Source: Acidimicrobiia bacterium (GTDB lineage: Bacteria > Actinomycetota > Acidimicrobiia > Spongiisociales > UBA5794). From it: a DNA stretch of 64,000 nt. The number at the start of each line of letters is the position of its first letter. Position 1 is the stretch's first letter. The position numbers and the translations under genes are program-made. The notes below the pieces were generated by a model. That model made no database searches, was not told the origin of the DNA, and was given only the letters and a program-made list of their open reading frames with translations. The stretch is from assembly GCA_026985095.1 (NCBI GenBank), contig JALSQW010000029.1, positions 1-64,000 of the forward strand. Direction: 5' to 3'. Shown piece by piece: positions 8,649 through 58,984 of the stretch.

Positions 8649-8731
8649 GCCGGGATGCCCGAGCGGCCAAAGGGAGCAGACTGTAAATCTGCCGGCTCAT
8701 GCCTACGGAGGTTCGAATCCTTCTCCCGGCA
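8649..8731 (+). tRNA. tRNA-Tyr (anticodon GTA)
   Basis: 83 bases, class II with a long variable arm. Acceptor GCCGGGA pairs with TCCCGGC; the anticodon loop CTGTAAA has GTA at 8683-8685; the T-loop is TTCGAAT. CCA is not encoded. Confidence 0.95.
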
Positions 8732-8782
8732 CGACGCGGAGGTTGTGCCCGTCTCGAAGCGGTCACTAGCCTTCGGGCGACG

Positions 8783-8854
8783 GCCCCCTTAGCTCAGTGG
8801 CAGAGCACTTCCATGGTAAGGAAGGGGTCCCGGGTTCGAATCCCGGAGGGGGCT
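8783..8854 (+). tRNA. tRNA-Thr (anticodon GGT)
   Basis: 72 bases. Acceptor GCCCCCT pairs with AGGGGGC; anticodon stem CTTCC/GGAAG with GGT at 8815-8817; T-loop TTCGAAT. CCA is not encoded. It reads ACC and ACT codons. Confidence 0.95.
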
Positions 8855-8883
8855 CTGCGGCCGACGAGGCCGCCGTCCAATGC

Positions 8884-8957
8884 GGCGGAGTAGCTCAGAC
8901 GGTGAGAGCGCTCGACTCATAATCGAGAGGTCGGCGGTTCGAGTCCGCCCTCCGCTA
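8884..8957 (+). tRNA. tRNA-Met, elongator type (anticodon CAT)
   Basis: 74 bases. Anticodon stem CTCGA/TCGAG encloses CAT at 8918-8920. It lacks the GGG/CCC anticodon-stem pairs of initiator tRNA. CAT could also be a lysidine-modified tRNA-Ile, but Thr-Met directly before tuf/rpmG is the usual actinobacterial order. The first acceptor pair is G-T. Confidence 0.88.
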
Positions 8958-12412: not shown

Positions 12413-12486
12413 AGGGGTGTAGCTCCAACTGGCAGAGCGCCGGTCTCCAAAACCGGAAGTTGTGGGTTCGAGTCCCGCCACCCCTG
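12413..12486 (+). tRNA. tRNA-Trp (anticodon CCA)
   Basis: 74 bases. Acceptor AGGGGTG pairs with CACCCCT; anticodon stem CCGGT/ACCGG with CCA at 12447-12449; discriminator G. Lies 22 bases before secE, the usual actinobacterial arrangement. Confidence 0.95.
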
Positions 12487-55559: not shown

Positions 55560-56897
55560 GTGACCGACCCATCCGTGACCGAACGGACGTTGTTCGGCAC
55601 CGACGGTGTGCGAGGCCGCGCCAACTCGGAGTTGACCGTCGACCTCGCGGTCGGATTGGCGAGGGCGGCGGGCAGGATGACCGATCTTCCGGTGGCGATC
55701 GGCCGCGACCCCCGGCGTTCGTCACCGATGCTCGCTGCCGCCCTGATGGCCGGGTTCAACTCGGTCGGCGTCGACGTCGTCGATCTCGGGATCGTCCCCG
55801 TCGGCGCCGTGTCGCGACTGGGTCGCGACATCGACGCCGGTTTCGGTGTGATGGTCAGCGCATCGCACAACCCCGCCGAGGACAACGGGATCAAGTTCTT
55901 CGGACGGAACGGGACGAAGCTGTCCGACGAGGAGGAGGCTGCCATCGAGGCCGCCTATCGCAGCGGCCGCCCCGCCGGTGTGCCCGTCGGCTCGGCGGTG
56001 GGGATCCAGACCGTGATGACCGACGCCACCGAGCGCTATGTGGACCGACTGGCGGCGACCGTGCGGTACTCCATGCGCGGGTTGGAGTTCGTCGTCGATT
56101 GTGCCAACGGTGCGGCCTTCCGGGCCGCACCGTTGCTGTTCGACAAGGTCGGAGCGACCGTCGAGATCATCAACGACGAGCCCGACGGGATGAACATCAA
56201 CGACCGGTGTGGCGCCACCCGACCGGAGACGGTCGCCGCCGCGGCGCGGGGGAGGGTCGGGCTCGCGTTCGACGGCGACGCCGATCGGCTGATCGCCGTC
56301 GACGAGGACGGAGCGGTCGTCGACGGGGACGTGCTGATGGCGATCTTCGCCAACTGGCTGCACGAACAGGGCCGGCTGCAGAACGACACGGTCGTCGTGA
56401 CGGTGATGTCCAATCTCGGCTTCCACGAAGCGATGCGGTCGATCGGCGTCGAGGTGATCCAGACCGCGGTGGGTGACCGCTACGTCCTGGGGGCGATGCG
56501 GCGCACCAGAGCGGTGATCGGTGGCGAGCAGTCGGGACACGTGCTGCTCGAGGACCGCACGACGGGCGACGGGCTCCGCACGGCGCTGCGCCTGATGGAG
56601 GTCATGGCGGCCACCGGCCGGGAGCTGCGGGAGCTGCGCACGGTGATGACGGTCTATCCCCAGGTCCTGCGCAACGTGGAGGTCGCCGACAAGGATCGGC
56701 TCGGAGACGACGCCGAGATCGCGGCAGCGATCGCCGACGGGGAGCGGACCTTGGGAGACCGGGGCCGCATCCTCGTGCGGGCATCGGGCACCGAACCGCT
56801 CGTGCGGGTCATGGTCGAGGCACCGTCCGAGGAACAGGCGGCACGGGTCGCCGACTCGATCGCCGAGGTGGTCGCTCGTCGGATCGGGCGACCCTGA
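55560..56897 (+). CDS. glmM: Phosphoglucosamine mutase
   Basis: 445 residues from GTG (GGAAGGGG upstream; a GTG five codons later is possible). LFGTDGVRGRAN, phosphoserine Ser102 in SASHNPAEDNGIKFF, metal-binding DGDADR (238-243) and ASGTEPLVRVMVE near the end. Converts glucosamine-6-P to glucosamine-1-P for UDP-GlcNAc and cell wall synthesis. Located 64 bases after rpsI and followed by glmS, the previous enzyme of the pathway. Confidence 0.96.
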   Translation: MTDPSVTERTLFGTDGVRGRANSELTVDLAVGLARAAGRMTDLPVAIGRDPRRSSPMLAAALMAGFNSVGVDVVDLGIVPVGAVSRLGRDIDAGFGVMVSASHNPAEDNGIKFFGRNGTKLSDEEEAAIEAAYRSGRPAGVPVGSAVGIQTVMTDATERYVDRLAATVRYSMRGLEFVVDCANGAAFRAAPLLFDKVGATVEIINDEPDGMNINDRCGATRPETVAAAARGRVGLAFDGDADRLIAVDEDGAVVDGDVLMAIFANWLHEQGRLQNDTVVVTVMSNLGFHEAMRSIGVEVIQTAVGDRYVLGAMRRTRAVIGGEQSGHVLLEDRTTGDGLRTALRLMEVMAATGRELRELRTVMTVYPQVLRNVEVADKDRLGDDAEIAAAIADGERTLGDRGRILVRASGTEPLVRVMVEAPSEEQAARVADSIAEVVARRIGRP

Positions 56898-57163
56898 GGC
56901 CTTCGGCTGATCCTCGGGTAACCTGGGGTCCACAACCGAAGCCGGGTCGGACGAGCTGTCTCTGGAGCGCCTGCCCTCACCTCGGGTGAGGAGACGAGGA
57001 AGAGGGAGTATCGAACCGTCGGCGGATGCCCTCTCGGCCGTTCACGGTCGTGACGATGCGGAGCAAAACCGGGAGCGATCCCGACACAGAGGCCGCATCG
57101 GTGTGAAACGGGAGCCTTCCCGTTCCCGCTCCTCCGACCCCATCGACGATGGGAGGTCGCGCC
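56898..57163 (+). promoter_or_regulatory. Structured leader upstream of glmS, candidate regulatory RNA
   Basis: No coding frame with support. A TAACCT at 56919-56924 could start a transcript with a leader of about 230 bases. Perfect helices in order: 7 bp at 56975-56981/56985-56991; 6 bp at 57001-57006/57029-57034; 8 bp at 57054-57061/57093-57100 enclosing a 5-bp hairpin with a GCGA (GNRA) tetraloop at 57070-57083; and 7 bp at 57107-57113/57118-57124. The ribosome site follows. I do not recognise a known riboswitch or the glmS ribozyme. Confidence 0.55.
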
Positions 57164-58984
57164 GTGTGCGGGATCATGGGATACGTTGGGCCCCAGCAGG
57201 CGGCCCCGATACTGCTCGACGGGCTGACCCGCCTCGAGTACCGCGGCTACGACTCGGCGGGCATCGCCGTGGCCGGCGGGGGGATCGAGATCCGCAAGGC
57301 GGAGGGCAAGATCGAGCGCCTGGCGGCGCTGATCGACTCGGAGCCGATCGCCGGCAACGCCGGCATCGGACACACCCGATGGGCCACCCACGGCCCACCG
57401 TCGGACCGCAACGCCCATCCCCACGCCGATCCGACCGGCGACTTCGTCGTCGTCCACAACGGCATCATCGAGAACTTCTACGCGTTGCGTGAGGAGTTGC
57501 AGGCGTCGGGAGCGGCGTTCGCCTCCGACACCGACACCGAGGTCCTCGCCCATCTCGTCGCGTCCGAGTACGACGGCGACCTCGTGAACGCGGTCCGAAA
57601 GGCCGTGGCTCGCGCCACCGGCGCGTACGCCCTGGTGGTGATGGCCAGGGCCGAGCCGGGGAGGATCGTCGCCGTCCGCAAGATCAGTCCGCTCGTCGTG
57701 GGCCTCGGCGACGGGGAGAACTTCCTGGCGTCGGACATCCCGGCGGTGCTCCATCGGACCAGGGACTTCCTCATCGTGGAAGACGACGAGCTGGTCGTCA
57801 TCGACGCCGACGGGGCGTCGATCGAGACGATCTCGGGCGACCCGGTGCGACGGGAGATCTTCCACGTGTCGTGGGACGCGGAACAGGCCGAGAAGGCCGG
57901 GTTCGACCATTTCATGGCGAAGGAGATCCACGAACAGCCGTCGGTCATCTCCGAGACCCTGGCCGGGAGGCTCGAGGACGACCGGGTGCTTCTCGAGGAG
58001 GCGGCGTTCGACGACGACTTCGTGCGGGGGATCGGGACGCTGTGGATCACCGCCTGTGGGACGGCGTACCACGCCGGTCTCGTCGGCGCCGAGGTGTTCC
58101 GCCGGACCCTACGGATCCCCACCCGAGTCGAGTACGCGCACGAGCTGCGGTACCACGAGCCGCTCGTCGCGCCGGGCGACCTGGCGGTGGCGATCTCGCA
58201 GTCGGGGGAGACCGCCGACACCTTGGCGGCTGCCCGCCTGGCCGGCGAGCTGGGTGCCCGCGTGCTGGCCCTCACGAACGTCGTCGGGAGCACCCTGAGC
58301 CGGGACGCCGACGACATCGTGTACACCCGTGCCGGCCCGGAGATCTCGGTGGCGTCGACGAAGGCCTACCTGGCCATGCTCATCGGCCAGTACCTGCTGG
58401 CGCTGCGCCTCGGCCGGGCGAGGGGCACCCTCGACGAGGGGCTCGCCCGGCGGATCACCGCCGGCCTCCGCCGTTTGCCGGAGATGGTCGAGGAGGTCCT
58501 CCGGAGCGAGGAGGACGTGATGGCGGCGGCAGCGTCGATGGTGGATGCCGACGACGTCTACTTCATCGGGCGTGGCCTCGACTACGCCGTCGCCATGGAG
58601 GGGTCGTTGAAGCTGAAGGAGATCTCCTACCTGCACTCCGAGGCGATGCCGGCCGGCGAGCTCAAGCACGGCACGTTGGCGTTGGTCACCGAGGGGGTAC
58701 CGGTCATCGTCGTGGTCACCCAACGCGACGTCTACGACAAGACCTTGTCCGCGGTCCAAGAGGTCAAGGCGCGAGGCGCACGGGTGATCGCCGTCGCCTA
58801 CGACACCGACGAGGAGATCGGGAAGTTCGCCGACGTCGTCCTTCGGATCCCCGAGGGCGAGGACCTGCTCGCTCCGGTCACCGCCGTCGTCCCGCTCCAG
58901 CTCCTCGCGTACCATGTCGCCCGACTGCGGGGTCACGACATCGATCAGCCGAGGAACCTGGCGAAGTCGGTCACCGTCGAGTAG
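57164..58984 (+). CDS. glmS: Glutamine-fructose-6-phosphate aminotransferase (isomerising)
   Basis: 606 residues. The GTG at 57164 is chosen because the catalytic Cys must be residue 2 (VCGIMGYVG) and GGGAGG lies 7 bases upstream. The N-terminal glutaminase domain has RLEYRGYDSAG, GHTRWATHG and VVHNGIIENF; two SIS domains follow (ACGTAYHAG, SQSGETADTLAA, KELKEISYLHSEA-like) and the protein ends DQPRNLAKSVTVE. First committed step to UDP-GlcNAc. acpS follows after 19 bases. Confidence 0.96.
   Translation: MCGIMGYVGPQQAAPILLDGLTRLEYRGYDSAGIAVAGGGIEIRKAEGKIERLAALIDSEPIAGNAGIGHTRWATHGPPSDRNAHPHADPTGDFVVVHNGIIENFYALREELQASGAAFASDTDTEVLAHLVASEYDGDLVNAVRKAVARATGAYALVVMARAEPGRIVAVRKISPLVVGLGDGENFLASDIPAVLHRTRDFLIVEDDELVVIDADGASIETISGDPVRREIFHVSWDAEQAEKAGFDHFMAKEIHEQPSVISETLAGRLEDDRVLLEEAAFDDDFVRGIGTLWITACGTAYHAGLVGAEVFRRTLRIPTRVEYAHELRYHEPLVAPGDLAVAISQSGETADTLAAARLAGELGARVLALTNVVGSTLSRDADDIVYTRAGPEISVASTKAYLAMLIGQYLLALRLGRARGTLDEGLARRITAGLRRLPEMVEEVLRSEEDVMAAAASMVDADDVYFIGRGLDYAVAMEGSLKLKEISYLHSEAMPAGELKHGTLALVTEGVPVIVVVTQRDVYDKTLSAVQEVKARGARVIAVAYDTDEEIGKFADVVLRIPEGEDLLAPVTAVVPLQLLAYHVARLRGHDIDQPRNLAKSVTVE

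Follow-up and report, generated by a model that had tools for sequence, protein, structure and literature searches.

What precedes glmS in this actinobacterial genome, and how might it act on the gene? In the window, by which we mean the whole stretch of 64,000 nucleotides that was analysed, glmS (57164..58984, plus strand, GTG start; TIGR01135, 779 bits, above cut-off) lies downstream of glmM, the gene for phosphoglucosamine mutase (55560..56897, plus strand; NCBIfam TIGR01455, 498.6 bits, above cut-off). The region discussed here, 56898-57163, stops one base short of the glmS GTG at 57164, and every feature in it is given on the plus strand. Among named genomes, Acidimicrobiia metagenome-assembled genomes (MAGs) are the nearest relatives; the GlmS of one of them, L002, is 96% identical to that of the window. 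A preliminary description made from the letters had found five helices in the region, including an 8-bp helix, a hairpin with a GNRA (GCGA) loop and A-rich flanks. It called the element unassigned, suggested a metabolite-sensing riboswitch or a separate small RNA, and proposed an Rfam scan.

Identity of the structured leader

The scan, covering both strands of the 64 kb, found a single family in the region, the glmS ribozyme (RF00234), at 56955-57109 (91.7 bits, E=6e-20, with a score cut-off of 37 bits). The alignment spans the full model, positions 1-167, and the ribozyme core occupies 56967-57100. Across the window, four tRNAs are the only other Rfam matches; three of their genes are clustered at 8649-8957 and one more is found at 12413-12486.

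All of the expected parts can be assigned. The predicted self-cleavage site lies between A(-1) and G1 (56966..56967; AGCGCC in the Rfam alignment), in a strand made of A followed by GCGCC (56966-56971). The P1 hairpin (56975..56991) pairs CCTCACC with GGTGAGG (56975-56981/56985-56991). It is followed by the core strand GACGAGG (56993-56999), in which G56996 is the counterpart of G39 (PMC11602151 numbering), a catalytic-site base in B. subtilis. P2 (AGAGGG/CCCTCT, 57001-57006/57029-57034) has between its arms the core strands AUCGA (57010-57014) and CGGCGGAUG (57020-57028). The P3/P3.1 pseudoknot, GGCC-GTTCAC-GGTC-GTGA (57036..57053), is conserved in relatives and is composed of P3 (GGCC/GGTC, 57036-57039/57046-57049) and P3.1 (TCAC/GTGA). 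The P4 domain (57054..57100) consists of a perfect 8-bp helix, CGATGCGG/CCGCATCG (57054-57061/57093-57100), an A-rich flank or internal loop, AGCAAAAC (57062-57069), and P4.1, CGGGA-GCGA-TCCCG (57070-57083), with its GNRA tetraloop GCGA at 57075-57078. The helices listed in the preliminary description are therefore all present, as P1-P4.1 of the glmS ribozyme.

As for conservation and covariation in relatives, the absence of which that description had named as telling against its element, in f1, the window's family, the ribozyme stands before glmS in 44 of 50 genomes sampled, and P1 has a covarying stem with a variable loop. Together, the covariance-model score and the recurrence of the same structure in those 44 genomes rule out chance helices. 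Six f1 genomes (G207, G304, G349, G359, G375 and G377) gave no ribozyme match, which may reflect loss or assembly gaps.

Judged by its sequence, the element before glmS is a complete glmS ribozyme, a member of a known family, and its cleavage is predicted to depend on GlcN6P. It was thus rightly perceived as a cis element of glmS that is structured and senses a metabolite, while the label "unassigned" has to be dropped. A new, unrelated riboswitch or a separate small RNA was a natural thought for a structured region without an annotation familiar to the author. We give that reading practically no credence and reject it, given a full-length match of 91.7 bits with all core motifs.

Compared with RF00234 as known from Bacillus subtilis and Thermoanaerobacter tengcongensis, the whole fold, the cleavage site between A and G1, the core strands, the position before glmS, the P3/P3.1 pseudoknot and the P4 with an A-rich internal loop and a GNRA tetraloop are the same. 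What differs is that the window's element adds a hairpin P5, a hairpin that hides the Shine-Dalgarno (SD), and a long-range helix P0 across the cleavage site, three features absent from the earlier list of helices.

A helix across the cleavage site

The window's leader contains a -10-like box, TAACCT (56919..56924), and in most of the family's aligned leaders a TANNNT box occupies about this position; a -35 box was not found in most of them. The -10-like box would imply a transcription start near 56930. The motif ACAAC(N)GAA (56932-56940), which lies after the box and upstream of P0 and is strongly kept in f1 leaders, probably represents the first transcribed bases. Downstream of the ribozyme, f1 leaders contain two more hairpins before glmS, P5 and the SD-hiding hairpin, and they are near-uniform in length (mostly 192-212 nt from G1 to the start). 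P5 itself (AACGGGA-GCCT-TCCCGTT, 57107..57124) is directly 3' of the ribozyme, and an equivalent hairpin of freely varying sequence directly follows P4 in nearly all of the Acidimicrobiia leaders listed.

The leader segment between the -10-like box and the cut contains the reverse complement of the anti-SD strand. In the window this 5' strand of P0 (an anti-anti-SD), GGGTCGGACGAGC at 56944..56956, pairs with the anti-SD strand GCTCCTCCGACCC at 57128..57140, just upstream of the SD, in a helix of 12 bp (8 bp, one C.C mismatch, 4 bp). P0 encloses the whole ribozyme together with P5 and is mostly outside the Rfam model.

The letters of P0 vary among relatives. Most f1 leaders have GACCGGAG/CUCCGGUC; the window's genus differs in both strands, with GGGUCGGA/UCCGACCC. 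Further compensatory examples are L146 (GAUCGGAG/CUCCGAUC), L106 (GGGACCGAA/UUCGGUCCC), L005 (GAGACG..GUGAUGCG/CGCAUCAC..CGUCUC) and L010 (CGGAGAUAC/GUAUCUCCG), and, in f3, L085 (GGCCACGAC/GUCGUGGCC) and L084 (CGAACAGAGC/GCUCUGUUCG). The f8 leader of L021 has GAAUGCUGGAG/CUCCAGCAUUC. Family f12 (1-Mb, AT-rich genomes; L107, L151, L277-L296) keeps P0 nearly invariant as AACGAGCAA/UUGCUCGUU, with one compensated variant, L296. Its leader from the TATAAT box to the cut is ~20 nt, little more than the P0 strand, and its downstream hairpin is likewise conserved.

For an alignment-free test, the best uninterrupted helix between each leader and its own downstream region was compared with those of swapped partners in 10,000 permutations. 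No permutation reached the real pairing in f1 (n=39; 0/10,000) or in f3 (n=24; 0/10,000); the counts were 7/10,000 in f71, an actinobacterial family outside the class (n=16), 70/10,000 in f2 and 115/10,000 in f7. The signal was not significant in f77 and f61 with the sample at hand, and it was absent in Bacilli (n=29; 2803/10,000). Sequences within a family are kin, so these counts are not exact probabilities. Null controls argue that kinship is not enough by itself to produce the signal: taken as a control, the stretch 77-118 nt before the cut gave 8244/10,000 in f1 and 8826/10,000 in f3. Hence shared base composition can be rejected as the cause of P0 in these two families. The same control returned 156/10,000 for Bacilli, meaning that composition effects do exist there. 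Column-wise covariation in a sequence-only alignment of f1 was borderline (96.4, with a permuted mean of 85.5 and a maximum of 98.0), since the P0 helix shifts register.

Several suggestions can be made regarding the role of such a helix. With no more than ~15 nt between the P0 strand and the predicted transcription start, P0 could shield the 5' end of the mRNA. The uncut RNA would be double-stranded there and would resist pyrophosphohydrolase or RNases, and the cut would expose a single-stranded 5'-OH end. We regard this as improbable: in f1, f2, f5 and f8 the downstream strand of P0 is the anti-SD strand itself, and protection of the end leaves both this overlap and the fixed place beside the SD unexplained.

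Access to the SD and a possible switch

In the minimum-energy fold of 57101-57172, the window forms the hairpin CGACC-CCATC-GAC-GATGG-(GA)-GGTCG (57135..57159), which covers the SD, GGGAGG at 57151-57156, and overlaps the 3' strand of P0. When the leaders of relatives are folded, their SD is hidden too. The median probability that the SD is unpaired is 0.012 for 67 ribozyme-led glmS starts; for 47 further starts with an identical SD core, taken from the window and related loci, it is 0.415. The SD arms also match their own upstream arm better than the arms of other leaders (0/2000 shuffles). Several leader strands imitate the SD arm, as does GGAGAUGC against GGAGAUCGC in L007, L102 and L138. 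L087 and L158 carry a ~40-nt hairpin-forming insertion between the anti-SD strand and the SD; their strands GGUCUCC and GGAGAUC are still complementary despite it.

The anti-SD strand can serve either P0 or the SD hairpin, and hence the two are mutually exclusive. In the fold model, holding the P0 strand unpaired lifted SD freedom in f1 from 0.09 to 0.61, compared with 0.31 for an equally long random segment (p=5e-11); in f2 it went from 0.05 to 0.43, compared with 0.20 (p=5e-4). The window's own leader showed no rise in this model (0.48 to 0.39). The effect was not significant in f3 (p=0.25) and was absent in f12, although P0 itself is conserved in both; there P0 may serve another function, or an additional one. 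A broader sample of Bacilli showed a slight rise as well (0.45 to 0.56; 0.44 with a random segment), so that the holding test is not fully specific. A literal two-state fold of f1, in which a stand-in hairpin replaced the ribozyme, had a modest effect: the SD was free at 0.08 in cut RNA, 0.23 in uncut RNA with its own leader and 0.17 with swapped leaders.

We consider it quite probable that the glmS ribozyme is joined here to a translation switch controlled by cleavage, and we offer the whole explanation as a proposal. The sequence contains what it is built on, namely a complete ribozyme, the complementarity of P0, and an SD hairpin that shares the anti-SD strand. At low GlcN6P the RNA would stay uncut and P0 would form around the ribozyme once the anti-SD strand has been transcribed. 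With this strand held in P0, the SD would emerge free and glmS would be translated. At high GlcN6P the ribozyme would cut between A56966 and G56967, probably within the lag of ~30 nt that separates completion of P4 (57100) from synthesis of the anti-SD strand (57128-57140). The 5' fragment of ~35 nt would then be lost, the anti-SD strand would pair with the SD, and translation would stop. Of the two pairings, P0 is the one that needs RNA 5' of the cut; hence cleavage should remove the activating strand and leave the SD hidden. The B. subtilis ribozyme cuts at a rate of ~0.36 per second (PMC11602151), and from this rate and the order of synthesis we infer that a cut made during transcription could beat the formation of P0. 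A fragment cut off after P0 has formed would be slow to dissociate, which counts against the switch. The 5'-OH end made by cleavage would also let RNase J decay proceed, as in Bacillus subtilis. RNase J is encoded in the genome (TIGR00649, 474 bits), so decay by the classical route has probably been retained.

That route might be all there is. The leader would then be a plain glmS ribozyme with cleavage and RNase J decay as its only output, P0 would be a closing helix that aids folding or insulates, and the SD hairpin would be an unrelated brake. The mechanism is established in Bacillus (PMC3997798) and this genome has the nuclease; moreover, f3 and f12 conserve P0 although holding it leaves the SD unfreed in the model. 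Nevertheless, Bacilli ribozymes fold without P0, and a mere closing helix needs neither the anti-SD strand as its partner, as in f1, f2, f5 and f8, nor mimicry of the SD arm. We therefore judge the plain ribozyme unlikely, though it has more in its favour than protection of the 5' end. With slightly less confidence than we place in the switch at this locus, we favour the wider view that P0 and the SD hairpin are a true expression platform in which catalysis directly controls translation in addition to decay. On this view the device would occur widely in Acidimicrobiia, would extend to one or more further actinobacterial families and would be missing from Bacilli.

Known systems and distribution

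The glmS ribozyme is the textbook case of a riboswitch without an expression platform. P0, severed by cleavage, and the SD hairpin together seem to form a new expression platform, one that has not been described for this ribozyme. The canonical output is RNase J decay without such a platform, whereas here a covarying P0 shares a strand with the SD hairpin. Access to the SD is reportedly the output of the translational T-box riboswitches of Actinobacteria; these differ in that their ligand is tRNA and no cleavage takes place.

The missing expression platform is the point on which a 2024 review argued that glmS is not a riboswitch. A 2026 study that modelled the covariation of aptamers and expression platforms reported that glmS lacked any covarying overlap (PMC13273304). 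By its description, its sequences were extended downstream, and it would therefore miss a strand that is mostly upstream of the Rfam model. If correct, our proposal would answer the question that this study posed and left open, and it would mean that nature has wired RNA self-cleavage to translation by discarding a cis activator strand.

A similar logic is known in enteric bacteria. The SD of E. coli glmS is hidden by a stem-loop and is freed when GlmZ pairs with the anti-SD strand (PMC4651636). In both cases a hidden SD would be freed by another RNA on the anti-SD strand, but GlmZ is a trans-acting, Hfq-dependent small RNA, while here the strand is in cis and would be removed by self-cleavage. 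One might ask whether the released fragment of ~35 nt could itself work as a trans-acting small RNA, for example on the anti-SD strand of other glmS transcripts, to which it is complementary just as GlmZ is to the enteric leader (PMC4651636). This seems very improbable to us, as such a fragment would activate glmS at high GlcN6P, the wrong sign for feedback.

Other systems also link a ribozyme reaction to expression. In C. difficile, a c-di-GMP-II riboswitch combined with a group I self-splicing ribozyme places expression under the control of a small molecule (PMC9481103); there, an allosterically controlled intron is spliced, whereas the element here would lose a pairing strand through GlcN6P-dependent cleavage. 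In engineered twister and hammerhead switches the SD is placed in a ribozyme stem, and self-cleavage alters access to it (PMC5052635). These are man-made and of opposite sign, since cleavage frees the SD.

The proposal, if true, would also extend a drug target and a part for synthetic biology to actinobacteria. The preliminary description knew of no actinobacterial precedent for the element, and this part of it proved mistaken: the ribozyme is carried by 162 of the 395 sampled genomes of the class and by 75 of 396 in the phylum. Within the open-licence literature, we found no paper treating the glmS ribozyme in Acidimicrobiia; the 2011 consensus paper (10.1261/rna.2590811) might mention an actinobacterial member or P0. 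The description had also placed ribozyme regulation of glmS in Firmicutes. It is indeed the same glmS ribozyme that is found here, and 55 of the 61 genomes of a Bacilli sample have it; the occurrence in the class and in the phylum means that it is not restricted to Firmicutes. Ribozymes upstream of glmS were also seen in MAGs labelled Binataceae (L055, 2680-2836; L057, 2547-2702), Ktedonobacteraceae (L052, 1816-1982), Terrabacteria group ANGP1 (L029, 2591-2850; L030, 2602-2779) and Armatimonadetes (L022, 1500-1698), well outside Firmicutes.
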